Origin: Magnetococcales bacterium
Lineage (GTDB): Bacteria; Pseudomonadota; Magnetococcia; Magnetococcales; DC0425bin3
Direction of reading: 5' to 3'
Length of the DNA stretch: 33,051 nt
Assembly (NCBI GenBank): GCA_015231175.1
Contig: JADGBZ010000034.1
Location: forward strand, 1 to 33,051
Of the stretch, positions 1 through 20,558 are shown in pieces. How positions within the stretch are numbered: position 1 is the first letter of the stretch; the number at the start of each line of letters is the position of its first letter. A model generated the notes under the pieces. It searched no databases. It saw only the letters and a list, made by a program, of their open reading frames with translations, and had not been told where the DNA came from. Made by a program: the position numbers and the translations under genes.

Positions 1-3000
1 ATTCGAGTTTGGTAGGGCTGTGTGACCGCGATCAACCAAGAAGGGACACTACCCAGTAACGCATCCCACACCGGATGACTATGGCCAGACGGGTCGGTCT
101 CATGGAGTTTTTCAGTCACCATAAATCGCGGGTCGGAAGAGAAGAGAACTTCGGAGTATCCATATTTCAACCCCTCGCCCAGAGGGTGGGAAACATCCCA
201 CCGGTATCCAAGCACCATGCGCGCCAGGATGATCCAGAGTTCCCTCATGGTGGTGCGGACGCCGACCTCTACCAACCGGTCGAATACGTTCAAGACACGT
301 TTTCGCACCCGTTCATCCCGCAATTTTTCAAGATGGCGTTTGGGCAAGGGCACCGATTCCGCCGTGATTTGCTCAAGAGTCGGATCGGAGAGGATGCGAT
401 TCAGCATCTGGCCGGAAATTCCCTGACTCAAGTCGGAGAGGATGCGATTCAGCATCTGGCCGGAAATTCCCTGACTCAAGGGGTTCCTCAGGCTTAAATC
501 GATCACCAGCAATCCGTTCCGCGCTTTTTCCGCATCTGACGATTCCCCGTAGACCAATCGGTTCCGGCATTGCCGGTCAAGTTCTTCCGCCAGACTCGGC
601 AAGGTCTCCCTGGCATCACTGCGAAGGAGATGAAGGGGATATTCGTTGATGGCAATGCAGAAAGGTTTTTTCGCGGAAACAGCTTCGCGCCAGCGGTCAC
701 GCACGGGTGCGATGCTGCCTTTGCGCATGGTAGCCGTGGCATCCTCGATGACCACTGCGCCCTGTTGGCGTAGTTCGGAAGCAAGCCTGCGCAATACGTG
801 GGTCTTGCCATCTCCGGCGTTTCCAGTCAGGAACAGACTGACACCCTGACGGACTTGCTCAGCAATGAAATCCTCCACCGCCAATTGCACATGAAGGCGG
901 TCGAATTCGGGTTCAGACAGAGAATCGGAGGTGATCTTTGGCCCCGCCTCGGCGAGTTGACGCCAGAAGGACACCGACATCCCCGGTGTTCCGGGATGCG
1001 CCGAAGATTCTGGCGATGGGGGAGAGGGAGGCATGGCGGCAGTGTTCTCCTGGTCCTCCAGGGTGGGGAGCCGATCACTCAACTTCCAGGAACCTGACAT
1101 CATCAAAGCGGTCATGCTTGGCACATGACGCAACCTTGGCGCAAGCCAACGGGTAACCCAATAATTCACAACACGCTCACCAGCCCGCCTGAAATCCTGT
1201 GGCCTCGCCAGGTAGTCGGGAAGTTCGACCGGGCGGTTGTTGAGGAAGTCCACAGCCTGGGGGGCAAGCGCGGTCACATAAATCAAACGTTGCCGATTGT
1301 GCCGCATCAAGGCGTCCGGTGGAAAGCCCAATTCGCGCAATCCGGCCACAAGAAGACGCAACTTTGGGCTTGGACCCTCGCCAAAAATGCTGTTGACGTC
1401 CTTGAATTTTTTTTGATGACGGAGGAATTCTTCCACCGCATTCCTGGTTTCGCTCAAAAACTGAAGCGTGCCAAACCCGGCGGTCAGCCCCAGTCGGCGA
1501 AAACGCAATTCTGGTTGTTGCTCACTGATGGTTCCCGCCGGGAGTCTGACACGTTCATACTGACTGCTGCCTTGGGCGTAGAGACTGGTCGTGCCGAGAT
1601 AGACCAGGGGATTGTCGCGATAAACCTCCGCGTTCTTAATCTGGGAGGAGATGATGGAAGCTCCCGAGTACTGGCGGCGGTAGTCATCGCCTATCTGGGG
1701 CGAATACAGGAGCAAAGCGGCCAGTTTGCCGCCAAGAATGTGATTGTACGGGGGAATGGCTCCGCAGGTGCTGATCTCCAGCATATTGACGCCCGCATAC
1801 CGGCTCTTGATGGCGTCGAGCACCGTTTGCAGGGCAAGCCTCACCTCTTCGCGAGCCAATACGGCAAGAAAACGTTCGGGGTTTTGCAGATTATCTCGAT
1901 GGGTGAGCAGGGTAAGACGGGCATGGAGCAGGTCGGCCAGCAGGGCCGCCCGCTTGCGGGCCACCAAATGCCGACGCGCTTTCTGCATAGTGGGACTCTT
2001 GAAGGGTTTGGCCTCCAGATTCAGCACCTCGTCGTCTACCGGCGGGTGATCGCTGCCAAGCTCCAACGCTTCCCCGTCTTCGACCAGAAGCAGGGGCCCA
2101 TCGTTGCCGGATCGCAACCGAGCCAATTCCTTCAGAGTCTCGTCGCGCAAGAGGTCGAATTCTTTTGCCTTGCGCCTCAAAAGGGAAATCAACGCTGGTT
2201 TGGGATGGGTGATTTCTTCGGGTGATGCTAACCCTTCCGCATGAACGTCTTCTATCGCGGCGGCGAGTTGTGTTTCCATCCACTCGTATTCTGCGGTCAA
2301 TCTCCCCTCACGGGCGGATTTTCCAAATCGTTCCGAGAGTGCTTCCAGGTTCCAGCACAGGTCTTTTTCCCGTTCCACGCCCATTTGCAGGGCAGTGTTG
2401 GTCAGACCGATGATTCCCATCACCGCATGATTGGGATGGGCGGCGTCTCGCACGAGGTAGAGCAGTTGCCGACCGGGTGTGGAAAATTGTGGGATGGCCC
2501 AGGTATGGCGGAAATATCGCCAGATTTCCCGCAAAAAATGCCCCGTATGCTCGTCAACCCCTTCCGACGTGACCAATTGCAAATAGGGACGAATGACGGT
2601 GCTAAGGGACGAATCCCGATCTTCGCCTTGGCGTGCCTGAGCACCGAGCAAGCGGGCATGCAATTCCGCGCCCTCAGCGATCAATCCGGTGATGGATTTT
2701 TTGCCGGTCTTGGGTGTTGGAGCCTCCATGCGCTGGATAAAAGCACGTACAGCGGGATCGCGAAGCTGGGCCTCGACCGCCGGGCGAAAGACTTCCTTTG
2801 TCTTTTTCTTTTCTTCAAGGATTTCTTCAGGGTTGAGGCCATGTCGTCGCGATGGGACGGAATACAATTCAATGCCGTAGCCATCTTCACGGATCTTCCA
2901 TCCCAGCCTTTCCAGGTCCAGGAGGACACGAACCGCCGCCATGAAGGCGTAACGATCCTCTCCGACCATGGGGTGACTGGTGGCCCAACGAAGCTCCGCC

Positions 3001-3119
3001 GAGAGCAACGCCTCCCGATCCTGTTCCGTGGTGAGTGGGGCGCGGGCCAGGGTACGCGCCATGGCAAGGTAACGTTCGGCGGCGACACCCGTCAATTTTG
3101 GTTGAACGGAAACGATCAT
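1..3119 (-). CDS. DruA-like (DUF4338) protein fused to a P-loop ATPase domain, 3' end outside window
   Basis: The frame is open without a stop from an ATG at 3119 to the window edge, giving 1,039 visible residues. Residues about 1-640 look like the DUF4338 family, whose best known member is DruA of the Druantia anti-phage system. Visible signatures are CGAIPPYNHILGGKL (452-466), a GASIIS segment soon after, and TTSLYAQGSSQYERVRLP (510-527). A proline/serine-rich linker follows (about 684-712). Then comes an ATPase domain with Walker A GNAGDGKT (766-773) and a hydrophobic stretch ending in Asp874 (LLVID) that could be Walker B. DruA itself is normally about 400 residues without an ATPase, so this is a fusion or a larger relative. 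The start has only a weak GCAGGG Shine-Dalgarno. It diverges from a toxin-antitoxin operon. A defence role is inferred from the family; the DUF4338 assignment rests on motif recognition. Confidence 0.8.
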   Translation of the reverse strand, partial: MIVSVQPKLTGVAAERYLAMARTLARAPLTTEQDREALLSAELRWATSHPMVGEDRYAFMAAVRVLLDLERLGWKIREDGYGIELYSVPSRRHGLNPEEILEEKKKTKEVFRPAVEAQLRDPAVRAFIQRMEAPTPKTGKKSITGLIAEGAELHARLLGAQARQGEDRDSSLSTVIRPYLQLVTSEGVDEHTGHFLREIWRYFRHTWAIPQFSTPGRQLLYLVRDAAHPNHAVMGIIGLTNTALQMGVEREKDLCWNLEALSERFGKSAREGRLTAEYEWMETQLAAAIEDVHAEGLASPEEITHPKPALISLLRRKAKEFDLLRDETLKELARLRSGNDGPLLLVEDGEALELGSDHPPVDDEVLNLEAKPFKSPTMQKARRHLVARKRAALLADLLHARLTLLTHRDNLQNPERFLAVLAREEVRLALQTVLDAIKSRYAGVNMLEISTCGAIPPYNHILGGKLAALLLYSPQIGDDYRRQYSGASIISSQIKNAEVYRDNPLVYLGTTSLYAQGSSQYERVRLPAGTISEQQPELRFRRLGLTAGFGTLQFLSETRNAVEEFLRHQKKFKDVNSIFGEGPSPKLRLLVAGLRELGFPPDALMRHNRQRLIYVTALAPQAVDFLNNRPVELPDYLARPQDFRRAGERVVNYWVTRWLAPRLRHVPSMTALMMSGSWKLSDRLPTLEDQENTAAMPPSPPSPESSAHPGTPGMSVSFWRQLAEAGPKITSDSLSEPEFDRLHVQLAVEDFIAEQVRQGVSLFLTGNAGDGKTHVLRRLASELRQQGAVVIEDATATMRKGSIAPVRDRWREAVSAKKPFCIAINEYPLHLLRSDARETLPSLAEELDRQCRNRLVYGESSDAEKARNGLLVIDLSLRNPLSQGISGQMLNRILSDLSQGISGQMLNRILSDPTLEQITAESVPLPKRHLEKLRDERVRKRVLNVFDRLVEVGVRTTMRELWIILARMVLGYRWDVSHPLGEGLKYGYSEVLFSSDPRFMVTEKLHETDPSGHSHPVWDALLGSVPSWLIAVTQPYQTR
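384..479 (-). repeat. 48-bp in-frame tandem duplication inside the ATPase domain
   Basis: Two adjacent 48-bp copies (432-479 and 384-431) differ at a single base, a synonymous GAC/GAT change. Each encodes LSQGISGQMLNRILSD, at residues 881-896 and 897-912 of the DruA-like fusion. The duplication sits just after the presumed Walker B strand. The near identity points to a recent event, and the frame is preserved. Confidence 0.95.
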
Positions 3120-3232
3120 CTGACCCTGCAAATCACAATGCGAAGCTGATGGTGGATTGATCCAACCCTGGCCCTTCGAAAGGGGGGCTCCCGCGCAATC
3201 CTTGCCCGTGTTGCCGGAAAATGATGCACATC

Positions 3233-6990: not shown

Positions 6991-8025
6991 TTATCTCGTT
7001 CGAAACTCCGCGAGCCGGGAACAATCGACCAGACGGTCGAGGTTCTGGAGAGTAAAAACCTTGCCATGGGTAGCCAGGAGCAGCTTTTTCATGTCCTCCC
7101 GCCGCACCTTGAATCCCCTGCCAGCCACACAGGCAATGACCTCGAACCTGGGTGGCTGGTCCTGGTTTCTTCCTTGCATGGACAAAGCACCCAGATGTTG
7201 GACACGGGTCACCTTATCCCGTGCCGTGCCGTCGTCCTCGGTGATCTTGGCCTCGATAACCACCAGGGGATTGAACTCGTCGGGTATGATGAAATCTGGG
7301 GCTTGGTCGAAGCCGATCATGCGTTCGGCTCGCTTGGTCTTGCGGAACCCGACCCCGGCGCGGACCAAAGCCCCCTCGATAGCACTTTCCAACACATCGC
7401 CCACCAGTTCACTTACCGAGTCCCGGTGCCCTGCGAATGGCCGCCCCAGGAAGCGTTCGTAGAGCAGCATGGCGTAGGGCACCCCCATGTCGGCGAGAGG
7501 CTGAATGCTGGCCAAGCCGTTCCGGGTGTCTGCCTGTTCCAGGCGGTGCATGGTGCCCTCCACCACCGAAGGGGCACCTTCCCTGAGCAGAAGGCATGCC
7601 GTTTCGACCAGAGCACGCAACCGCTGACTGGTTAAGCTGTTGCCCAATTTCAGGGCGGTAAGCGGTTCCATCCTGATCTTGCGGTCCAGGGTACGAATCG
7701 CCCCTTGGCTCACGTCAATACCCGTCCGTTGGATGGCCACATAGGCCCACTCCGGCGGCGTAAATCCCAGTATGGCCCGCAACACGATGAAGGAGACAGG
7801 AGTCTGCTGGACCACTTCAAGCAGAATCTCAGGAGATATCTGGCGGAACCCTCCTGTGGCGCGCTTGATGGCCTCGTAGCCCTGGGCAAACGCGGGATAA
7901 TCGATGAATCCTGGCCCTTTCGGCAATGTCAGGAACTCGGATTGCAGACTGCCGAACACCGCATCGACGTAGATGTCCAGATCTGACTGGATTTCCGCGA
8001 AGGGTACCTCAAAGGGGAACGGCAT
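6991..8025 (-). CDS. PD-(D/E)XK nuclease, probable restriction endonuclease partner of the adjacent methylase
   Basis: The 344-residue protein has a C-terminal nuclease core. Asp244 sits in APDFIIPDE and Glu258-Ala-Lys260 in LVVIEAK, the D...ExK spacing of PD-(D/E)XK enzymes. Glu217 in the preceding helix may be the extra acidic residue. The N-terminal 200 residues are helical with no motif I recognise and may provide DNA recognition. The start is placed at ATG 8025 because GGAGGG lies 7 nt upstream; a longer frame to 8133 has no such support. It overlaps the methylase gene's end by 17 nt, so the two are co-translated. Together they look like a restriction-modification pair. Specificity cannot be inferred. 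A Mrr-like or other repair nuclease is less likely given the context. Confidence 0.75.
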   Translation of the reverse strand: MPFPFEVPFAEIQSDLDIYVDAVFGSLQSEFLTLPKGPGFIDYPAFAQGYEAIKRATGGFRQISPEILLEVVQQTPVSFIVLRAILGFTPPEWAYVAIQRTGIDVSQGAIRTLDRKIRMEPLTALKLGNSLTSQRLRALVETACLLLREGAPSVVEGTMHRLEQADTRNGLASIQPLADMGVPYAMLLYERFLGRPFAGHRDSVSELVGDVLESAIEGALVRAGVGFRKTKRAERMIGFDQAPDFIIPDEFNPLVVIEAKITEDDGTARDKVTRVQHLGALSMQGRNQDQPPRFEVIACVAGRGFKVRREDMKKLLLATHGKVFTLQNLDRLVDCSRLAEFRTR

Positions 8026-10201
8026 GGGTTTCCCTCCAGGCAAACAGTCCTGCCGTCGGTTCCTCTTCGCAAACGGGTGCAGCGATGCCAGCAACAATCC
8101 GTTTAATGGCTTCCTGGCTATCCCCGAAACCATTCACTGTTTGGGCCAGGATCGCTAGCCTCTCCGGCGTCGTCAGGTTGGGATTCCATGTGTGCCGCAA
8201 CCGCCAGATGGCCATACGGGTAAGATGACCAAATACGATGCAACGGACATCCCCGGCGGATGGCTTCAGTCCCGCTTTGCGTAGCTGAATCAACTCCCTG
8301 ATCACAATGGGCAGAAGAACGTCAATCTCACCGAACAGGAGCGTTGCGTTGGTTTGGCCATTGGCCCGGCAAACAAACACCGTATCGACGATGGACGAGC
8401 CAGTTCCGTGGATGTGGATCGATCCCCCCATTTCAGCCGGACATGGCAGGGATGCGGTGCAGGTCAATCCAGCGTCCAGGATGGCAACCCCCACCGCGTG
8501 GTAGGCCTCGATCCGGTTGTGATGGTAAGTGAAGGCCAGAGGCGCACCAGGTTTCAACGCCTGTGCCATGCGCCGGTAAACTGCGGACAGCCCTTCGGTG
8601 AAATACTCAAACCCTCGTCCCTGGGAAACATTGCCGGTCAGTTCCTGCGGTGATAGCGCCGTCTTCTGGTCGAACCCCACACATCCGCTGTCGGCCAACT
8701 GCCGCAGCCAAGCATGGCAGAAATCCATCAGTTCCCCATACTGGACATTGCCGAAGTAAGGCGGATCGGTGAGTACTGCGTCCAGAGTGGCGGTGGGTAG
8801 CGTCATATCTGTCGAGGATGCACGGTGGAGTTCCACCCTGCGTGGGCGAGCACCGTTGTTGCGCTCGCCTATCCACTCTCCCTGGATCGGGATGGTGGTC
8901 TTGCGTCCGTTCCTGTGGTCCACCTCGAAGGGTGCGCTGCAATAACGTTTGGCCTTCAGGAATTTCTCCACGATGTTTGCCCACCCTCCTGAGCCCACGT
9001 TCACACCGTGGCCGTTGAGGGTGCCGAGCAGATTGGATTCGCACTGCACCAGACCCACCGGAAAACCGTGGACAGAGAAAATATCCAATGACTTTAATGC
9101 CATTGTGTCGTATCGGCACAACATGTTCTGGTAACGGAGCAGATCGGAGAGGTTGGTTGCCAGGGCGCGTCGTACCCGTTCGTCGGCGATTCCGGCAATG
9201 AGGCGGCAGCTCAGTTCCAAGCCCAGGAGTTGGCGCTCGTTGAACATGTCCCGATAGCGTCCGTACCCCCACCGGTGCAAGCGACCAGTTTCGTCTCCAG
9301 CGGGAATGATATCCTCGGGAACAAATCTGGGGGTTGTCTCCTGCCAACGGGATGTGGCCAGCTTGGCTTTCTCCAGATCCTTGGCGTCCGGCTTTTTGAA
9401 GAAACGTCCCCGGTGGCGTTCTTTTTGGTGGGGATTGTGGTATTCAATGGCGAAAAGCCGATGTCCGGGTGGTTCCGCTCCCGGTCTGGGGTAGCTGTTG
9501 GCATGACCGCAATGAGGGCAGGAACACTGACCGCGTTTGGCAGGCCCGACGTTGCGCAGTCCGCTTCCGCACCCACCGCATCTTCCGGGGTTTCGGAGGT
9601 CTACCACCTCGTTCAAGTCGCCGCAACCAGGGCAGACCAAAACATTGCGAGGGTGTCGCTTGTTCTCGGCCAGCAGGTAGCCGGGGAACAGGTCGAAGGT
9701 GCCGCCACACCGTTCGCAGTCAAGAACCTTGACCCAGAGGAAGTACTTCACGGGTACATCGCGCTCTCCGTACAAAGGACAGTCGGTGTTGTACAGTCCC
9801 CCAACCTCGCGTTCCAAATCGGCCATCAGACCATCGGCGGCAATTCGGTAAGCGGCAAGGTCGAGATGCTCAATCTCTTCCCGGACAATCCAAAAGGACA
9901 TGGGGTTGATGTCGCAACCGATCACGTCACAGCCGACGCGGTTGGCCTCGATCAATGGCGTACCGCCTCCCATGAAGGGGTCAGCTACGGTCTTTCCTGA
10001 AAAATCGTTGGCACGGAAGAACGTCTCTGCCAGAGGGCGATCCCCAAACTCTGCCAGCAACAACCCCCGGAATAGCGTGCCAGGACGGCGGGCAAACCAC
10101 TTATGCACGGCGATGATCGGTCGGTAGTTTTGCTGAATCTGCTTCTCTTTCAATGCCAGGGAAGCGATCAAGGAGATATCGAAGGTCGATTCGATGGTCA
10201 T
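8009..10201 (-). CDS. DUF1156-type DNA methyltransferase with zinc-finger insert
   Basis: The 730-residue protein begins with a DUF1156-like segment (IIAVHKWFARRPGTLFRGLL). This leads into the SAM-binding motif DPFMGGGTPLIEA (74-86) and then the catalytic motif TDPPYFGNVQYGE (478-490). The order FxGxG before DPPY and the DPPY type indicate N6-adenine or N4-cytosine methylation. Between the motifs lies an insert with four cysteine pairs (Cys162/165, 190/193, 208/211, 228/231), probably two zinc ribbons. The start is ATG 10201 with GGAG 12 nt upstream; an in-frame TTG at 10219 overlaps that site and is less likely. The gene overlaps the nuclease gene downstream. DUF1156 proteins also occur in multi-gene anti-phage systems with a helicase and a DUF499 ATPase, but neither is present here. 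Confidence 0.85.
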   Translation of the reverse strand: MTIESTFDISLIASLALKEKQIQQNYRPIIAVHKWFARRPGTLFRGLLLAEFGDRPLAETFFRANDFSGKTVADPFMGGGTPLIEANRVGCDVIGCDINPMSFWIVREEIEHLDLAAYRIAADGLMADLEREVGGLYNTDCPLYGERDVPVKYFLWVKVLDCERCGGTFDLFPGYLLAENKRHPRNVLVCPGCGDLNEVVDLRNPGRCGGCGSGLRNVGPAKRGQCSCPHCGHANSYPRPGAEPPGHRLFAIEYHNPHQKERHRGRFFKKPDAKDLEKAKLATSRWQETTPRFVPEDIIPAGDETGRLHRWGYGRYRDMFNERQLLGLELSCRLIAGIADERVRRALATNLSDLLRYQNMLCRYDTMALKSLDIFSVHGFPVGLVQCESNLLGTLNGHGVNVGSGGWANIVEKFLKAKRYCSAPFEVDHRNGRKTTIPIQGEWIGERNNGARPRRVELHRASSTDMTLPTATLDAVLTDPPYFGNVQYGELMDFCHAWLRQLADSGCVGFDQKTALSPQELTGNVSQGRGFEYFTEGLSAVYRRMAQALKPGAPLAFTYHHNRIEAYHAVGVAILDAGLTCTASLPCPAEMGGSIHIHGTGSSIVDTVFVCRANGQTNATLLFGEIDVLLPIVIRELIQLRKAGLKPSAGDVRCIVFGHLTRMAIWRLRHTWNPNLTTPERLAILAQTVNGFGDSQEAIKRIVAGIAAPVCEEEPTAGLFAWRETHAVPL

Positions 10202-10302
10202 TGAAAAGGGTGTCTCCAAGAGTTGATCTGGTCTTCCGAAGATGATCTCGGACCCAAGTTTACCTCCTTTTCCGTTTTCAAGCCAACCATCCTGCGCATC
10301 AA

Positions 10303-12243: not shown

Positions 12244-13407
12244 TTAGCATCCCTTATAGTGAAGCAATCGATCGATTGCTTCACTCAAAACATCTGGATC
12301 GCAAGCCACATTTATCCGGCCAAAGCCTTCCCACTCTGATCCGTATCCCGAACCATCGTCCAACGAAACTTTGGCTCGCCGCAAGGCATTGAAGCATGAT
12401 CGATATGGTGGGAAACCCAGTTCCCTCAAATTCACCCAAATAAAAGGTGTCGAACCAAAGCAATAAAAAGAGTCAGAACTTAATACATTTGCAAACCGTT
12501 TCTTCGCAACCAACATGTTCTCGCGAATAGCAACCCGAGCTTCTGCCAGCCAATCCAACCCACTTGTGAGACAGGCGGATGCAACACACTCAAATAAAGC
12601 AGTTGGAGGACAAACACGAGGATGCGAAAAATCGCGAAATATATCACCAGTCTTGTAATTCGAAAAAGCAAGCCAAGCACCACGTATAGAAGAAACTGCC
12701 CATGACTTAGTCACCGATTCTGCAAGAACTACATCATTAGAATTCTCAAAGATACTCTTCAAAAAATCCATCTCACTTAAGTCTAGAAGCGGTCTGTATA
12801 TACAATCAATAACAATTTTCATGCCCGCACGAGTTGCTAGACTAGCTAAATCAATAGCTTCTTGTTTGCTGAAAATTGATCCAGTGGGCACATGTGGAAA
12901 CGTCATCAGCACCGCTCCTTGCGTCCCATCGCACGCCGCTTCAACTGCATCAACATCAATTGACACACCATCGGCGGTACAGCACAAGTTAACAACTTCA
13001 GGCACTCCACCGCCAGAAACAATGGCGTTACACAGACCTGGGTATGCCGGACCAAGAACGATTATCTTTTTTTTGCTACGGTCAAGAAGTCGAACTATCT
13101 CGCTTATAGCAAATAGCAGCCCACCAACGAACTGCAGATTTGCTATATCAAAATTAATGCCTATTTCTTGGTATTGCTTCTGCAGAATCTCACGTAGTTT
13201 TGTCCTCTCATTGCCTGGAAAATATCCAAGATCGCTAGATCTGGCTTTCTGTGCAATTGCGTTTACAATGTGCTCCGAGACTCTGCAGTCAAATTCTGCA
13301 ACATCAAGGGGCAAAACGTCTTTCCCAAAACGCGACCATTTAAGACTACTTCGCTTTCGGCAATCAGTTTCCGATAGCCAGTTAAACTGTGAAGGTTTAG
13401 AAGGCAT
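12244..13407 (-). CDS. PLP-dependent aminotransferase / C-S lyase-like enzyme (fold type I, MalY/PatB-like)
   Basis: The 387-residue protein shows the class I/II aminotransferase layout. VLPLDVAEFDCRVSEHIVNAI resembles the MalY 'WVADMDF' opening. LGYFPGN comes next, then Asp201/Tyr204 in IVIDCIYRPL, and Lys234 in AESVTKSW, which should form the PLP Schiff base. Near the end, GFGRINVACDP supplies the substrate-carboxylate Arg. The usual NPxNPTG motif reads FPHVPTG, so Val replaces the Asn that contacts PLP O3'. This is unusual and may alter chemistry or abolish it. The start ATG 13407 overlaps the upstream gene's end by 11 nt; in-frame ATGs further upstream lie deep inside that gene. It is the last gene of the leftward AT-rich set. 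An aminotransferase or beta-lyase role is inference; the substrate is unknown. Confidence 0.75.
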   Translation of the reverse strand: MPSKPSQFNWLSETDCRKRSSLKWSRFGKDVLPLDVAEFDCRVSEHIVNAIAQKARSSDLGYFPGNERTKLREILQKQYQEIGINFDIANLQFVGGLLFAISEIVRLLDRSKKKIIVLGPAYPGLCNAIVSGGGVPEVVNLCCTADGVSIDVDAVEAACDGTQGAVLMTFPHVPTGSIFSKQEAIDLASLATRAGMKIVIDCIYRPLLDLSEMDFLKSIFENSNDVVLAESVTKSWAVSSIRGAWLAFSNYKTGDIFRDFSHPRVCPPTALFECVASACLTSGLDWLAEARVAIRENMLVAKKRFANVLSSDSFYCFGSTPFIWVNLRELGFPPYRSCFNALRRAKVSLDDGSGYGSEWEGFGRINVACDPDVLSEAIDRLLHYKGC

Positions 13408-14599
13408 TTGTCTGCAAGGGAAATACCCACTCCTCATTAATTTTTGGTACCTGTACATTACCAGCGACACGTTTAACTTGAAACAAAGCTTCAAACGAGA
13501 CCACATTTCTGGAAAAACCAGCAAATTTTCCTCTTACGGTACGGAAATTTTCAGCGGCTTGTGGAAGGTCACTAAATGCTAGTGCTGCTCCCAAGACACC
13601 AGAAGTGTGCAACCCATGCACCATAATCACCGAAGCACTTGGATCGAAGGGGTTCGGAAAGCGTGCAAAATATCCATAGTCGATTAATAACAATCCATCA
13701 TGATATTCAGGTCTAATAACTTGGATGGAATCACCACTTTCAAGATTCAACGATTCTCCATCTTCCGCATACTTGATCGCGCTCCTTATAGTTCGATTAA
13801 ATTCCCGACAAATTGGGTTTCCAGGTAAAACATCATCAATCCCAGGGCCACCAATTACAACAAGGTTATCCCTCAATAACTGTTTACCTGGAAACTCGTC
13901 TGAAGTGTATTTATGGACGCGAGAGCTATAGTTTCGCGATAGAAACACCATTAGCTCAAGAACAGTATCTTTATCGCTAAACTGCTCAAGATAAACATGA
14001 TTTCTGTGGTTTGGGTTTGATGAGTATAAATTATCTGTAGATTTCGATGCTACAATATGAATTGCGCCTGTCTCCTGAGGAAACCAAATTAGATTTCTAT
14101 CCATTGGGCTAATTCTCTGCCCTGCAAGGACTTCATGCACCTTTTCTACCAATCGATAAGGCAGCGTTACCGACAGATTAGCATCATCCTCATAATAGAG
14201 CGGATCATCATAAAAATCGGTGTTTCTTATGCTTTCCACTCTCTCTCTTCTTATCGTAATAATATGAGGTATTTTTGCGGCTTCACAATACCCTGCTTGG
14301 TACAGCTCAACAGCTGAGTCGCCAGCGCTAATATCTAAAATCAACAATGATGATGCATTCAATGCAGACACCACATTCCTGGCTGTAATTTTACTTTGTG
14401 AAGTTTGTTGTGCAACTAGCTCAACTTCTAAGTGTACGCCTTCTTCTGTAAGCATAGCTGATGCAGCCGCTGCCGCTTTAGTCACCGATGCACTAAAAAT
14501 CGATGCAGCTTCAGTGTTTCCACGGTAACAAGTGCCAATGGCAACTAACACTCTGACAGTTTTCTTGCCCGAAGCCTGTTTATTGGGTTTAGGTGACAT
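13397..14599 (-). CDS. Two-domain protein with an N-terminal nucleoside deoxyribosyltransferase/TIR-like domain
   Basis: Residues about 16-160 form an alternating alpha/beta domain opening RVLVAIGTCY. A core LLILDISAGDSAVELYQAGY (85-104) resembles the 'D-S-G-x-x-x-E-x-G-x-A' signature of nucleoside 2-deoxyribosyltransferases and related TIR-like nucleotide-processing folds; Glu98 would be the nucleophile. The C-terminal half (about 245-400) has NLVVIGGPG, then LIDYGYFARFPNPFDP, then VIMVHGLHTSGVLGAAL. It looks like a second folded sensor or ligand-binding domain that I cannot name. The start is uncertain: ATG 14599, or TTG 14611 overlapping the upstream stop. Either way the gene is translationally coupled upstream and overlaps the PLP enzyme downstream by 11 nt. 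Proteins with such domains are frequent in bacterial conflict systems, but a metabolic role is equally possible. Confidence 0.6.
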   Translation of the reverse strand: MSPKPNKQASGKKTVRVLVAIGTCYRGNTEAASIFSASVTKAAAAASAMLTEEGVHLEVELVAQQTSQSKITARNVVSALNASSLLILDISAGDSAVELYQAGYCEAAKIPHIITIRRERVESIRNTDFYDDPLYYEDDANLSVTLPYRLVEKVHEVLAGQRISPMDRNLIWFPQETGAIHIVASKSTDNLYSSNPNHRNHVYLEQFSDKDTVLELMVFLSRNYSSRVHKYTSDEFPGKQLLRDNLVVIGGPGIDDVLPGNPICREFNRTIRSAIKYAEDGESLNLESGDSIQVIRPEYHDGLLLIDYGYFARFPNPFDPSASVIMVHGLHTSGVLGAALAFSDLPQAAENFRTVRGKFAGFSRNVVSFEALFQVKRVAGNVQVPKINEEWVFPLQTNAF

Positions 14600-14607
14600 A
14601 TCAATAC

Positions 14608-15369
14608 TCAATTCTTATCAATCATTTTCATGCGACGAAGAAATAGTTTTTGAATGATTTCAGTTGGAGGTGAAACCGAAAACAAAACCGACCCTGCTCC
14701 AAGCGACAATCCTAAAGACGGATCCACAATTCCTGCAATCAATGACGCTGTTGACAGAGCAACCAAACTTACTCGCTCAGCAAGAGCAATGTTACCAATG
14801 GCACTTAGACACATTCCATAGGTTAGTAAATTTGCCCCGATATTAGATAATAACTCAGGCCGCATGAGCCACAAGTCCAACTCAACCGAACGGTTTATGA
14901 TAGGCAAGACCTTGATTGTAAGGTAGTCAGCTATTTCAAAGTAGATGGAAGCTTGTTCTTTGTCAGAGACCATCCTAGTTTCATTAATTATTACTTGAAC
15001 TGTCCTAATTATCCCCCTCACTTTGTCTTCAGATACTACGGATATACTGCGCTCACGGTCATCTGTAGATTCAATTTTCTTTAGTTCTGACAAAAAAGTG
15101 GAATCTTTGCTTGGTTTCGTAATTTCAGATGCCCAGAGATCTATGAAATCTATACCCAACTCAATTGTGGGTTTCTTTATCTCAGTACATAAATTCAGGA
15201 TAATATTTGCTGTGACAAGCTTATTGTCCAAGTTTGATCCTGCACTAGGCCCCCAAACGGTTTTAGACCAAAGCAAGAGGCCAAATTCGTCTGTTTGATG
15301 AGAACGATTTCGTGCTAGTCGCCCTAGAGTTGATATTACATGAAGCGGGTCAATTTGTATCTCGCTCAT
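14608..15369 (-). CDS. Unknown 253-residue protein with hydrophobic C-terminal region
   Basis: No family is recognised. The first 170 residues are mixed and charged. Residues about 178-232 are strongly hydrophobic and rich in Ala, Gly, Leu and Ser (LLTYGMCLSAIGNIALA, SLVALSTASLIAGIV, LGLSLGAGSVLFSV), compatible with two or three membrane segments. The basic tail FLRRMKM would lie on the cytoplasmic side. ATG 15369 has GGGA about 9 nt upstream. Its end touches the next gene (4-nt overlap if that gene uses TTG 14611), so the two are likely expressed together. Directly upstream lies an IS1182-family remnant, which separates this gene from the biosynthetic genes further right and may have cut an original operon. 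A membrane-anchored partner of the NDT-like protein is a plausible guess only. Confidence 0.5.
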   Translation of the reverse strand: MSEIQIDPLHVISTLGRLARNRSHQTDEFGLLLWSKTVWGPSAGSNLDNKLVTANIILNLCTEIKKPTIELGIDFIDLWASEITKPSKDSTFLSELKKIESTDDRERSISVVSEDKVRGIIRTVQVIINETRMVSDKEQASIYFEIADYLTIKVLPIINRSVELDLWLMRPELLSNIGANLLTYGMCLSAIGNIALAERVSLVALSTASLIAGIVDPSLGLSLGAGSVLFSVSPPTEIIQKLFLRRMKMIDKN

Positions 15370-15499
15370 ATCAATGTCCCATTTAGGAGTCTGTCTCCAA
15401 ATAGTCTGGCTAGTTGGTTACAGTGGTCAGTTGACCGAAAGTAGGCCCTGCCAGTCCGGTTTCTTACTGACGAAAAGGCGGGAATTCCACCCTCAATGG

Positions 15500-15860
15500 A
15501 GCTATTTGGCCCCTTTCTCCCCTCTGCGGACGTACTCCACCTGCATTTTCTTGAGATTGTGCTCCACGGCGTGCAGTTCCACTCCCCATCGCAAAACTTG
15601 ATCCCGCGCATCCGGAACTCGTCCGTACCCTGGGTTTCCTTCATCTGCCCGAACACTGGCTCATCTTCCGTCATCCATTCTCGATTTTATAGCATCTTTC
15701 CGCACTTGGTCAACAGCTTCCGCTCCATCCGTTCCCGATTCGTCAGATCCTGCGGAATCCTCCATCCGCCCCCGTGGTGCCACCTGTTCTTACATCGCTC
15801 GTCGATGTTTCCAATCCTTCCGGGTGGCGATCAACAGTTCACAGTCGTCTGTCCCCGCCC
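15500..15860 (-). pseudogene. IS1182-family transposase, C-terminal remnant
   Basis: The leftward frames carry the C-terminal signature of IS1182-type transposases in broken form. LLIATRKDWKHRRAM comes first, then RIPQDLTNRERMERKL with a stop codon soon after, then EPVFGQMKETQGTDEFRMRG. After a one-base frame change comes LHAVEHNLKKMQVEYVRRGE. At least one stop and one frameshift are needed to join them, and the N-terminal three quarters of the gene are absent. It is dead. It sits between the glycosyltransferase gene and the hydrophobic-protein gene, in sequence more GC-rich than its neighbours. Confidence 0.75.
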
Positions 15861-16110
15861 CGTTGTTCTCATCCGACTGAGGTGGACGGACCCCAAAGCA
15901 AGGACAGAAATCGGATCGGAATAAGCTACACCCTACCCATGGTAGAAGGCCGTTCCGGACCACCCTTTCGCGTGTCAAATTTTAAAAATGGTTTTCCCAA
16001 GACTCCATGCTCAGATGAGGAGAAGGGGGCATGGTTGCGGGAAACGGTCGTATCGTTTTGTTGGTCTCGAATCCGGGGTCCATTTTACTGCTCTTCTATC
16101 CAAACATGAT
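15861..16110. other. Scar sequence between the IS1182 remnant and the glycosyltransferase gene
   Basis: No gene is recognisable in these 250 bp or in 15370-15499 on the other side of the remnant. The composition is intermediate and probably represents decayed insertion-sequence ends. Intact inverted repeats or a target duplication were not found by eye. Confidence 0.45.
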
Positions 16111-17343
16111 TTATCGTGCTAACCTCATAGAACTATTTGCAGCAGATATTATTTTATTCAAGATATTCTGGCTGCAGATCTTATTAGCAACACAGGCTTT
16201 CACCCTATTGATCTCTTCCAGTGATGCCTCGTACAATACAGCTTGCTGGAAGTCTTCGTGTGTTCGTCGATAGGTCCAATTATCAGGGATAAGGTTGGCG
16301 GCTCCTACATATCCGTTTTTTGGTACAACAATCTTAGCTCCCGCTATTATTGCCTCAAGCATAGTATAAGGAACCAAATCATACCTTGATGTGCAGGCCA
16401 CAACCCCACAACTCGCAATCCAAGGAAATACAGATTGAATCAATACATTGTGTGGAAGTCGAGGAAGACGAGTTATATGCTGCCTAAATCCACAATCAAG
16501 CTTGCTATCAATTTCGCGAAACACAGGATCTTCAATCTCACCACCTATCAAGACAACCCCGCTAATCATGCCTGATGCAATGATACCATGAACACCCTCC
16601 AAAAAGAAATCAACATCTTTAAAGTAGTCAAACCTTGAAACAGCAAAGAGTACATATCTTTCGCCATTATTTGTAGCTAATTGTTTCAGTTCATCCGGAA
16701 GTAAATCGTGTTTTATGAATGATTCATTGTTTACCACGGGCGGAAGATTAAAGATGCGCGATCTATTAATCCCAAGGAGATTTAGATGGTCAATTTGTAT
16801 TTTACTTATCTCTGCGAACACTACATTACAACGGTTTGTAAGTTTTTCGAGTGCGCCACTCTGACGACACAAAAGGAAATCTGCTTTTGGGTGATCCCAA
16901 TCAAATGCCATCCGTCCATTTTCTTCACCAAGAAACGCAAAAACTGAGCTGACAAAAGGCGAATGATTGGTAATTACTATAGGTATGCTTGGTTCGAAGT
17001 AATCAGCAACTGCTAAACTCTGGCAATATAAAATAGCCCTGCAATCGTTACTCGATAAAAGCCTAAATTCGCCTGAAAAAAATTTAATCAAATCATCACG
17101 TCGCATGTCAAAATTAAAAGAAACGATGGAAGCATCATAATCCATAATGCGGCACCGCTTGCATTTCGGCTGCAGTAATGTTTGATCGCGATTGTACAAT
17201 AAAAAACTAACTTCAATTCCTGCCCCAGAAAGAATTTCTGAAATATGCAGAACGTGTTGGACCACTCCATAGATGAACGCAGAATTCCGTTCTATAGGAA
17301 CAAACTTATTGTTGAAAACGATAACCATCCTTTTTAAAGACAC
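16111..17343 (-). CDS. GT4-family glycosyltransferase
   Basis: The 410-residue protein has the two Rossmann-like halves of GT-B enzymes. The nucleotide-sugar half contains RYVLFAVSRFDYFKDVDFFL, the usual 'hGRhxxxKG' strand. It then has ACTSRYDLVPYTMLEAIIAGAKIVVP, which is the EX7E motif with Asp in place of the first Glu. The N-terminal half carries the acceptor-side helices (GVVQHVLHISEILSGAG) expected for lipid- or glycan-linked acceptors. The GTG start at 17343 is preferred because GGGGGA lies 8 nt before it; the first ATG (17328) lacks spacing. It follows the beta-helix acyltransferase gene by 32 bp and is probably co-transcribed. It should add a hexose-type sugar to a glycan, lipid or small-molecule acceptor; the exact substrate is unknown. 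Confidence 0.82.
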   Translation of the reverse strand: MSLKRMVIVFNNKFVPIERNSAFIYGVVQHVLHISEILSGAGIEVSFLLYNRDQTLLQPKCKRCRIMDYDASIVSFNFDMRRDDLIKFFSGEFRLLSSNDCRAILYCQSLAVADYFEPSIPIVITNHSPFVSSVFAFLGEENGRMAFDWDHPKADFLLCRQSGALEKLTNRCNVVFAEISKIQIDHLNLLGINRSRIFNLPPVVNNESFIKHDLLPDELKQLATNNGERYVLFAVSRFDYFKDVDFFLEGVHGIIASGMISGVVLIGGEIEDPVFREIDSKLDCGFRQHITRLPRLPHNVLIQSVFPWIASCGVVACTSRYDLVPYTMLEAIIAGAKIVVPKNGYVGAANLIPDNWTYRRTHEDFQQAVLYEASLEEINRVKACVANKICSQNILNKIISAANSSMRLAR

Positions 17344-17375
17344 CTCTTCATTCCCCCTGTCTCTCCAATCATGGT

Positions 17376-17951
17376 CTACGACCTTGCCCTAACAAGTCCA
17401 CGCATTGATTTAAGTGGCCTCCACTTCCCGCTCCCAATAAATGTTTTTGCTGGAACATCACTTCGAACAATTTCTCCAGCAGCAATATAAGAGCCTTTTC
17501 CGATTACTATTCCTCCAACAATTTCCGCACCTTGCGCAATAACCACTCCTTCTCTGATAATTGGAGAAACTTCGTCGACCTCTCCCCACTTCAAGGTCGC
17601 GTCTTGATACTGATGAGACATTTCACCCATCATGGTCACCTTCGGTCCAATAACTGTGCGGTCAGGAATATTTCCTCCTATGATGCAGTCCGGTCCGATA
17701 AGCGCATGTCTAGCTACTCTAACGGCATCGACAAGTTGAGATCTTTGCCCAATCCTTGAACCTCTTCCAACTACAGAATGGTGTGCGAGGATCACGTCTG
17801 CTTCGAGATATGCACCTGCCTCGATGACGCAAAATGCCCCTATTATTACACCCGCTTCAATTATTGTTGACTCCTCTACTTCACCTGGAAGTGAGTAGCC
17901 AATCACTGCTGTTGGGTGAACAATTGCGCTTTCATGAATTTTAACGGACAT
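17376..17951 (-). CDS. Left-handed beta-helix (hexapeptide-repeat) acyltransferase
   Basis: The 191-residue protein is built almost entirely of hexapeptide repeats ([LIV]-G-x4): AVIGYS, GVIIGAFCVIEAGAYLEADV, VVGRGSRIG, IIGGNI, VIGPKV, then GVVIAQGAEIVGGIVIGKGS. Catalytic His candidates are His53/His54 in ILAHHSVVG and the later His of MSHQYQD. Members transfer acetyl or longer acyl groups from CoA or a carrier protein to sugar hydroxyl or amino groups. The neighbouring adenylation enzyme and carrier protein make an acyl-carrier donor plausible, and the adjacent glycosyltransferase makes a sugar acceptor plausible. Six bases separate it from the hydrolase gene upstream. The start at ATG 17951 has no strong Shine-Dalgarno, as expected for coupled translation. 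Confidence 0.82.
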   Translation of the reverse strand: MSVKIHESAIVHPTAVIGYSLPGEVEESTIIEAGVIIGAFCVIEAGAYLEADVILAHHSVVGRGSRIGQRSQLVDAVRVARHALIGPDCIIGGNIPDRTVIGPKVTMMGEMSHQYQDATLKWGEVDEVSPIIREGVVIAQGAEIVGGIVIGKGSYIAAGEIVRSDVPAKTFIGSGKWRPLKSMRGLVRARS

Positions 17952-17957
17952 TTTTGC

Positions 17958-18824
17958 CTAGCCTATCACTGGAAATTTTCCACTAAGGGAACCATGGTTT
18001 AACAACCCAATAAGCTCCTCGAACACTGATGCCTGAAAGAACTTTGTCTTTTCTTCTTTGAAATTTGCATCACCAGGTTGAGCAAAACCATGATCTGCTC
18101 CTGGGATTTCTATGAGTTTTGCTTCATTATGGTCTCCCTTAACGCGGTTTCTCGAAATTGTAATGTCTACCCCTGCATCTTTATCACCATGAAATATCCA
18201 GATATTTTTAGTCGGCAGCAAAGTTTCAAAAGCTTTGAATTCGTTAATTATCGGTCTCCCGAATGGCTTTCCCCATGAAACAAGTGTATTCTTCTGCGTT
18301 AATTCGACTATCGCGTTATCAGATAGACCGTCATAGTTCCCCTTGCTCTCTCCAGCTCTACCGCCTTCGTCCGAACCCTTAATGTACTCATGAATGTAGT
18401 CAAGGATTGGGGCAAAAAGAACACACTTATCTATCATACTCTCGTTTCTGGAACACCAAGTTGAAGCTACACCTCCGGAGAATGATTGAGCAAGAACTGA
18501 AATTTTAGATATTTTATTGATCGACTCGCTAGCTATTCTTACTGCGGCATCAATATCGTTGTACAATCCCGCCAACGTTAATTCGGATAGTGGGCGACTT
18601 GAGTCAAAACCATGACAACGCCAGTCGAAACGAAATGACGCTATTGAATTCTCACGTAGTTGACTTGCAAGCCTAGTATAAAATCCTAAGTATTCGTCCC
18701 TGGTAACGTTAATGCCTGGCACCATAACAAGCAATTGATCAAATACTCCCCCCTGTGGAATTTCGAGCGTTCCCTCAAGCTCAACACCATCAAAACTGGT
18801 AAATCGTAAATCTCTAACGGTCAT
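17958..18824 (-). CDS. Alpha/beta hydrolase (esterase or editing thioesterase type)
   Basis: The roughly 288-residue protein has an alpha/beta-hydrolase layout. An oxyanion-hole strand LLVMVPGINVTRDEYLG comes first, then FRFDWRCHGFDSS. The nucleophile elbow is SVLAQSFSGGVAS (Ser in AQSFSG). The acid Asp is in WIFHGDKDAGVD and the His in PGADHGFAQPGD, so the triad is complete. It may release or edit carrier-bound intermediates (type II thioesterase role) or hydrolyse an ester in the final product. This is inferred from its place between the carrier-protein and acyltransferase genes. The start is set at ATG 18824 with AGGGGG 6 nt upstream; ATG 18827 and TTG 18842 are alternatives. The last of these would overlap the carrier-protein gene. 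Confidence 0.8.
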   Translation of the reverse strand: MTVRDLRFTSFDGVELEGTLEIPQGGVFDQLLVMVPGINVTRDEYLGFYTRLASQLRENSIASFRFDWRCHGFDSSRPLSELTLAGLYNDIDAAVRIASESINKISKISVLAQSFSGGVASTWCSRNESMIDKCVLFAPILDYIHEYIKGSDEGGRAGESKGNYDGLSDNAIVELTQKNTLVSWGKPFGRPIINEFKAFETLLPTKNIWIFHGDKDAGVDITISRNRVKGDHNEAKLIEIPGADHGFAQPGDANFKEEKTKFFQASVFEELIGLLNHGSLSGKFPVIG

Positions 18825-18838
18825 CATAGTCCCCCTGT

Positions 18839-19099
18839 TCAATTACGAATGTTTCTTTTGTCAGACATTTTTTCTAGCAGCAACCCGTGGAGGGCCTCTA
18901 GAGAATCACACCTTACCATTTCTAAGTCGGATATTTCGACGGAAAACACTTCTTCAATCTTCTCAACTATTTCAATCGTTGCCAAACTGTCCCAGCCTGG
19001 AGTACGGTAGACTGCAATCTGGATATCATTTTCACAATTTTGTTTTATTCCGAGCACGTCTAGTATAATTATCCTTATTTTGCTTTTCATGTTAATCAT
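18839..19099 (-). CDS. Acyl/peptidyl carrier protein
   Basis: At 86 residues it is the right size for a free-standing carrier protein. The phosphopantetheine attachment motif is clear: GWDSLATIEIVEKIEEVF, where Ser of DSL would take the 4'-phosphopantetheine arm. Helix 3 follows with VEISDLEMVRCDSLEALHGL. The protein is acidic overall. It overlaps the end of the adenylation gene by 8 nt, implying a one-to-one partnership: the adenylating enzyme should load its acid onto this protein as a thioester. It needs a phosphopantetheinyl transferase encoded elsewhere. ATG 19099 is used; ATG 19090 is a close alternative. Confidence 0.9.
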   Translation of the reverse strand: MINMKSKIRIIILDVLGIKQNCENDIQIAVYRTPGWDSLATIEIVEKIEEVFSVEISDLEMVRCDSLEALHGLLLEKMSDKRNIRN

Positions 19100-20558
19100 T
19101 TTCCAAGCTTGAGCTGTCGTGGATAAGTTTCTCGCAAGCTGCGTAGTTGATTTTACCTCTTAAATTTCTAGGCAATACTTTAGCGGTCATGATGTTTGTT
19201 GGGCATACAAAACTAGGGACTTCTTCTGCCACGATTAGGTTAATTTGATCTACAGAAACAGCTGGAGATGCCTCTACCAACAGCGTTAAATCATCACCAG
19301 ACTTTAAGACCACACAAGTAGCACCTAATCTCTTTATAAGTAATTCTTCCATGGTTTCTAGTTGTACCCTATTGCCATTTCGAACTATCTCTCGTCCTAA
19401 CCGGCCTTGATACACAAGCCCATCCCCAGAATCATCTACAATATCGCTGGTGTTGTAAATTCCTACCTCTCCAGGAGCCTTCAATTGGTAAAAATTGCTT
19501 GAACCATTTTTTGTGTCTAACCACTCAATGCAAACCTGTTTACTGCTAATTTGAAGCTCACCAGAGCTACTTCCATTTCGTGGTAATATTTTAATACTTG
19601 TATTAACAGTTGGACTACCCAAATCAGGAATTGCTCGATCATTTTGCAGAGACAGTTTTTCCCGGTTGATATGCTTTATCATAGAGAAGCCTGCAACTTC
19701 AGCGCATCCATATGTTGTATATAATTTAGTTTTTCTGGGTAGCCAAGCATTCATTTCCACGAGCGTTGAATGATGGACGATATCACCTCCCAAACCAACA
19801 AATTCCAGACTGAGTTCGCGCTGCAAACTGCGCCTTCGGCCAGCGGAGATCAGCTTGGATATTTGAGGGACACTTCGGAAATGAGTAGCTTGAGATTTTG
19901 CAAGTTGTGCATAAGCACTTAGTGGGTTCTTTTGGGGATCGTAGTATATGCTGGAGCCTGACGTTAGAGCCATCAATGCATTGTTCATCCACATATCGGA
20001 TGTATAGTCACCACATTCTATCCAAATATGTTCAGGTCTCAGAGCAAGATTATAGCGGGCCCATTTCAGAAACTCCGCTAGCCCTAACGAGTCAACTCCT
20101 ATTATTTTGGGGGCCCCCAATGAACCAGAAGTCAAGGTCATATGGCTTACAGCAGAATGAAACGCACTTGGCTCTTTCTGGATCGGGATGACTTGATCGA
20201 CTGAACTAGTTTCTATTTTAAATTTAATATTAGCGGTAGAAATGACAAGCTTTGCGTCTAAAGTATTAATATGCCGTTTGACTGCTTCAATAGAGGTCTG
20301 CTCACCCAAAACCATCATTCGAAAATTACCCAGGCAGCTAGCAAGTAGTGTCGCGTACATTACACTGCTGTCAGCTCCAAAGTAGATTACATAGTCATTC
20401 CTGCTAACTTTATTATGCGTAGCAAGACTGATGACACCTGAAACCAAGTGTGACAGATCTGTGTAAGTTATTTTACCCCAAGATCCTGCTAAAGCGATCA
20501 AGTTATCGTGTCTCTCAAACGAACTTAAGATCAGGCTTCTCATGTTTACAGTGTCCAA
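19092..20558 (-). CDS. Stand-alone adenylation enzyme (AMP-binding superfamily)
   Basis: The 488-residue protein shows the ANL-superfamily core motifs. The P-loop-like MTLTSGSLGAPK is A3. YTTYGCAEVAGF is A5. IYNTSDIVDDSGDGLVYQGR is A7, and GREIVRNGNRVQLETMEELL is A8. The C-terminal Lys in LPRNLRGKINY is A10. All catalytic positions are kept, so it should activate a carboxylic or amino acid as the acyl-adenylate and load the carrier protein encoded next. The substrate pocket (IWIECGDYTSDMWMNNALMAL) is not one I can decode. Start: TTG 20558 has GGGAG 9 nt upstream and is preferred over ATG 20543, which lacks a site. It is the first gene of the leftward operon; a MITE-like element sits 34 bp upstream and could affect its promoter. 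Confidence 0.86.
   Translation of the reverse strand: MDTVNMRSLILSSFERHDNLIALAGSWGKITYTDLSHLVSGVISLATHNKVSRNDYVIYFGADSSVMYATLLASCLGNFRMMVLGEQTSIEAVKRHINTLDAKLVISTANIKFKIETSSVDQVIPIQKEPSAFHSAVSHMTLTSGSLGAPKIIGVDSLGLAEFLKWARYNLALRPEHIWIECGDYTSDMWMNNALMALTSGSSIYYDPQKNPLSAYAQLAKSQATHFRSVPQISKLISAGRRRSLQRELSLEFVGLGGDIVHHSTLVEMNAWLPRKTKLYTTYGCAEVAGFSMIKHINREKLSLQNDRAIPDLGSPTVNTSIKILPRNGSSSGELQISSKQVCIEWLDTKNGSSNFYQLKAPGEVGIYNTSDIVDDSGDGLVYQGRLGREIVRNGNRVQLETMEELLIKRLGATCVVLKSGDDLTLLVEASPAVSVDQINLIVAEEVPSFVCPTNIMTAKVLPRNLRGKINYAACEKLIHDSSSLEND

Follow-up and report, generated by a model that had tools for sequence, protein, structure and literature searches.

The gene at the left end of the window (the whole stretch of 33,051 nucleotides that was analysed, from a Magnetococcales bacterium) is, with a probability of about three in four, the first gene of a variant restriction operon of the DndFGH/SspFGH type, in which a DruA domain fills the N-terminal slot of DndF and acts as an integral subunit. 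DruA is probably a built-in, acyltransferase-like subunit of the complex. Phage restriction has been published for both SspFGH and DndFGH (PMC8092258, PMC10853773), and the variant operon would be expected to act against phages as well. The sequence-only reading had proposed that the fusion could be the core of an undescribed anti-phage system; the fusion is real, but the system appears to be a variant of DndFGH/SspFGH with SspG-like and SspH-like genes rather than an undescribed core.

Layout of the fusion gene

The gene is a minus-strand open frame of 1043 codons that runs from position 3131 to the contig end (Table 1). Its probable start codon is the ATG at residue 5 (position 3119), the coordinate at which the sequence-only reading had the gene end. 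A DUF4338/DruA domain had been proposed for the N-terminal ~640 residues, followed in a single polypeptide by a proline-rich linker and a Walker A ATPase, and this layout, which is conserved in homologues, is borne out. In particular, the Pfam profile of DruA (PF14236) matches the protein at E 2.7e-27, with 96 bits against a cut-off of 27, and the PADLOC profile DruA1 does so at E 3.5e-115; the Walker A motif, TGNAGDGKT, occupies residues 769-777, after the linker. The combination of DruA and P-loop in this frame is far above chance. In an AF2 model computed from an alignment without plasmid-record sequences, the mean pLDDT is 87, with values mostly above 90 in the DruA region and low values at residues 699-717. 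The ATPase also carries a perfect tandem duplication, the unit of which is present in one copy in the homologue from genome G014.

Table 1. Features of the fusion gene and its surroundings at the left end of the window
Feature	Position	Strand	Evidence
DruA-DndF/SspF fusion gene, 5' part, open to contig end	1..3131	-	open frame, Pfam, PADLOC, G014 homologue
DruA region, residues 33-695	1047..3035	-	PADLOC DruA1 384 bits; PF14236 96 bits; AF2 pLDDT
Proline-rich linker, residues 696-735 (approximate)	927..1046	-	sequence; low pLDDT 699-717
DndF/SspF-type P-loop domain, residues 736-1025	57..926	-	PADLOC SspF/DndF matches; profile-profile comparison; conserved columns
Walker A of P-loop domain	801-827	-	sequence
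IS1-family insertion sequence end interrupting the fusion gene	1..53		identical ends at 6 other genome places
Two tandem identical 48-bp copies in the ATPase (in-frame 16-residue duplication)	385..480	-	sequence; single copy in G014 homologue

It is hardly credible that two neighbouring genes were joined here by chance read-through or by the assembly. The gene does border on an insertion sequence at a contig end, and DruA and F are encoded by separate genes in about 40% of loci; however, such a joining is refuted by homologues, which include an intact 1281-aa protein of G014 that is 67% identical to the window protein and 34 complete fused frames from many phyla that share this domain order. 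In the tree, fused DruA-SspF forms make up several supported clades.

When the whole model of the window protein was compared with the PDB by Foldseek, no match fell below E 0.001. The DruA part of the model aligns with malonyl-CoA decarboxylase 4f0x over 181 residues, with an rmsd of 5.3 and a middling Z score of 7.5 (below 8). The catalytic domain of human malonyl-CoA decarboxylase is of the GNAT type. This match, which is not strong alone, agrees with the published assignment of DUF4338 as GNAT (PMC10853773). The best viral fold match is a 469-aa protein of the giant virus Faunusvirus (A0A3G4ZXG3 in BFVD, E 1.9e-7), with a long alignment and a high rmsd.

Identity of the ATPase

Judged by homology, DruA's ATPase partner is DndF/SspF, a subunit of the DndFGH/SspFGH restriction complex. 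Sequence libraries gave weak pointers from the ATPase part to SspF, DndF and DptF. Profiles of the DruA loci were compared with genuine reference loci (DptF in G323, 483 bits; SspG in G010, 713 bits, and in G270, 508 bits). The F profile matches genuine DptF/SspF at 97-100%, with 100% probability over 506 columns, and the G profile matches SspG at 99.0% (E 9.8e-25); the H profile without its motor matches the reference at 98.2% in local and 99.4% in global comparison over 1065 columns, whereas the controls, a shuffled sequence and DruE, stay at 0.1%. Moreover, an Asn replaces the Walker B acid of the ATPase domain (AIN, residues 827-829) in conserved columns, and Asn in this position is a hallmark of DndF (PMC10853773). 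The F subunit consists of this P-loop domain and a large lid; its second half is missing from the window copy and present in G014. The sequence-only reading had suggested comparing the ATPase with AAA and STAND families, to which it does not belong: Pfam matches to STAND and AAA_16 lie under the cut-off, and structural matches to STAND, ORC and TnsC proteins (Z 8-9) were put down to the common P-loop core.

DUF4338 has already been given as an N-terminal fusion of DndF by Rakesh, Aravind and Krishnan (2024, PMC10853773); thus, the DruA-DndF fusion alone is not new, and the supposition that it had not been catalogued as a defence component holds only in part. The proteins of that study share with those described here the fusion, the DndF P-loop with Asn for the Walker B acid and the downstream DndG and DndH, and the PT-modification module is often absent. 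Unlike here, however, the domain is treated as an occasional backup effector, HerA/FtsK is the sole DndH motor and Druantia is unmentioned; the words 'RuvB', 'Druantia' and 'SfsA' are absent from the text.

A conserved DruA-F-G-H operon

Relatives were picked by their similarity to the fusion from 84,980 species genomes, viral contigs and plasmid records. In a sample drawn in this way, the constancy of G and H counts as independent evidence, whereas how often DruA occurs does not. An SspF-like frame is present in 63 loci; DruA is fused to it in 36 of them and is fused or directly upstream in nearly all. The strict order DruA-F-G-H, fused or split, occurs in 48 loci, where neighbouring genes mostly overlap or lie a few bases apart. 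In intact relatives, DruA~F is followed by G and then by H, and the G014 homologue continues into both; a G subunit downstream of F is also present at locus L011 and on contig C98 of the window's own genome. The loci come from 14 phyla of both prokaryotic domains, haloarchaea included. The SspABCD-SspFGH system (PMC8092258) has homologues of F, G and H in equal order; in contrast to it, the operons described here contain DruA, have a RuvB motor in one branch, and show no SspABCD-like family among their conserved neighbours. In 22 loci, mostly from Firmicutes (e.g., L048:13959-14642), an SfsA-type protein with an OB and a restriction-enzyme-like domain is encoded directly 3' of H.

It has been proposed for all variable DndF fusions that the fused domain is a backup effector (Rakesh et al. 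2024, PMC10853773). DruA would then be a suicide acyltransferase that is released upon failure of restriction, and DndFGH would work without it. The DndF slot does vary: at L139 (2963-6904) and L140 (4520-8653), the DndF proteins, of about 1300-1380 aa, have an N-terminal slot that looks NERD-like and kinase-like and is not DruA. However, nearly all loci across the phyla have DruA fused or immediately upstream, a higher constancy than an optional add-on would lead one to expect, albeit in a sample chosen via the fusion. The backup role is possible but rather doubtful, and DruA as an integral subunit is preferred.

DruA-SspFGH operons were also seen on three IMG/VR viral contigs (L116, L117 and L118), and the DruA of L117 is identical to that of L054, a copy from a Clostridia genome. 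No relatives of the fusion turned up in the annotated phage collection. In a Thiohalocapsa remnant (L069:9923-11724), a DruA fragment and a RuvB-like fragment lie in one frame, which suggests an internal deletion of the operon.

The H subunit and its motor

The alignment shows a PD-(D/E)xK-type nuclease motif in H: the D..D..ExK columns are conserved in H proteins, those of the RuvB type included. The motif was judged from alignment columns, since a count by regular expression is too strict. At the C-terminus, most other DruA-SspFGH loci carry an FtsK/HerA motor on H, but Pfam finds RuvB_N in 8 of 45 H proteins and RuvB_C in 5 of 45 instead. For the G014 H C-terminus, the predicted structure aligns with complete RuvB (6blb) over 280 residues with a Z score of 16.2; the rmsd is 13.0 across all three domains and 2.1 when the AAA core of 9dx3 is the reference. 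In 8 of 45 SspH-like proteins, the usual FtsK/HerA pump has thus given way to a complete RuvB motor for branch migration.

RuvB-type H proteins gave no direct PADLOC SspH matches; they are counted as members because of their homology to FtsK-type H, with which they share the non-motor part, and because of the profile comparison. The RuvB branch holds the nearest relatives of the window protein, and one of its members, L040, has a non-RuvB motor. Intact operons of the FtsK type come, for example, from Exiguobacterium and Anaerotruncus colihominis, and those of the RuvB type from G014 and a member of the Methylococcaceae. As RuvB stands in this branch where a HerA/FtsK motor would mark the H C-terminus, the system is called a variant and not a canonical member of DndFGH/SspFGH. 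A literature search of open-licence papers found nothing on RuvB combined with DndH, so a report elsewhere is possible; the motor swap looks new, as does the fixed operon of DruA and DndFGH. Moreover, the exchange of FtsK/HerA for RuvB in DndH provides two versions of one system, in which the role of the motor (pumping versus branch recognition) becomes testable.

Relation to Druantia

DruA, an orphan protein of Druantia, is now tied to the DndFGH/SspFGH complex. In this sample it is usually partnered by SspF, with Druantia type I forming one branch. Druantia type I (DruABCDE) shares full-length DruA with the operons described here and, in their haloarchaeal version, DruE and a weak DruD-like gene; in contrast to it, most DruA-SspFGH loci lack DruE, and their DruA falls in other clades. 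The available descriptions of PADLOC's published Druantia types contain no DruA-F-G-H operon.

A plain Druantia system, in which DruA works with a DruE helicase from another place in the genome and SspFGH is no more than a neighbour, is improbable. DruE does lie near DruA at L045 and L077 and at the haloarchaeal hybrid loci L008, L009, L062, L065, L067 and L119, which are often on plasmids and in which DruE stands with a weakly DruD-like gene and an unknown gene in divergent orientation to DruA-SspF-SspG-SspH; moreover, the window's own genome encodes a DruE-like (YprA-family) helicase in a 2104-codon frame on another contig (G000:C69:9335-14086). However, no DruE match was found in the G014 genome, at L011, at L020 or at most DruA-SspFGH loci. 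Among 80 DruA domains in a midpoint-rooted tree, whose rooting does not give the direction of change, the DruE-linked copies without SspF are confined to a separate supported clade of 19 with no SspF-linked copy inside. The physical fusion to F also argues that DruA acts with F.

Possible mechanism

In a complex with DruA as an integral part, F would be the nucleotide-binding subunit and G would be expected to read DNA; G and H together would bind DNA, which the motor would move, and the nuclease of H would cut DNA without a self signal. DruA~F may sense a nucleotide or an infection signal and thereby gate cutting by H. The RuvB motor in the window's branch suggests action on branched or replicating DNA.

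DndC is above the cut-off in only 3 of 50 genomes with DruA-SspFGH loci; thus, Dnd phosphorothioation is not the general self mark. It is conceivable, though unlikely, that DruA itself is a DNA-modifying enzyme of the GNAT fold that writes a self mark for the DndFGH-type nuclease in place of phosphorothioation, with the RuvB-motor branch attacking branched, replicating phage DNA. Mom of phage Mu offers a comparison for a DNA-modifying GNAT-fold enzyme. If DruA did write the mark, one four-part operon would be a complete modification-restriction system.

The damaged copy and its neighbours

The window copy itself is a broken, inactivated and decaying remnant. The sequence-only reading had looked to DNA left of the window for the rest of the gene, but the window starts where contig C34 starts. 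Positions 1-53 are the terminal part of an IS1-family element that occurs at 7 places in the genome, nearly all of them contig ends; a transposase beside the matching element in C4 belongs to DDE_Tnp_IS1 (156 bits). The fusion gene is therefore broken off near codon 1025 by the insertion. Similarity to the intact protein of G014 ends at the insertion-sequence junction, the insertion sequence supplies the final ~18 codons of the frame, and the missing ~256 codons were not found anywhere in the assembly. The remaining operon genes lie on C98, which opens with the terminal part of another repeated element and picks up the operon within the G gene. This part is damaged too: the H gene stops after 1259 codons, just short of the motor, which is absent, and lies beside a truncated HATPase gene. 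As the assembly is a draft, an intact allele of the fusion gene may exist.

The sequence-only reading had pointed to toxin-antitoxin and restriction genes nearby, but both pairs lie outside the conserved operon. The Phd/PIN pair consists of separate genes on the strand opposite to the fusion gene, and the methylase/nuclease pair, also separate genes, lies past a transposase and the remnant of a recombinase. At positions 6991-10219, a DUF1156/HmaB-like DNA methylase gene overlaps the next gene, whose family is unknown, and the two may form a restriction pair. Farther on, a minus-strand gene run (12244-20558) encoding a PatB-like aminotransferase, an AMP-binding enzyme, a glycosyltransferase, a hexapeptide transferase and other proteins resembles a small biosynthetic cluster.
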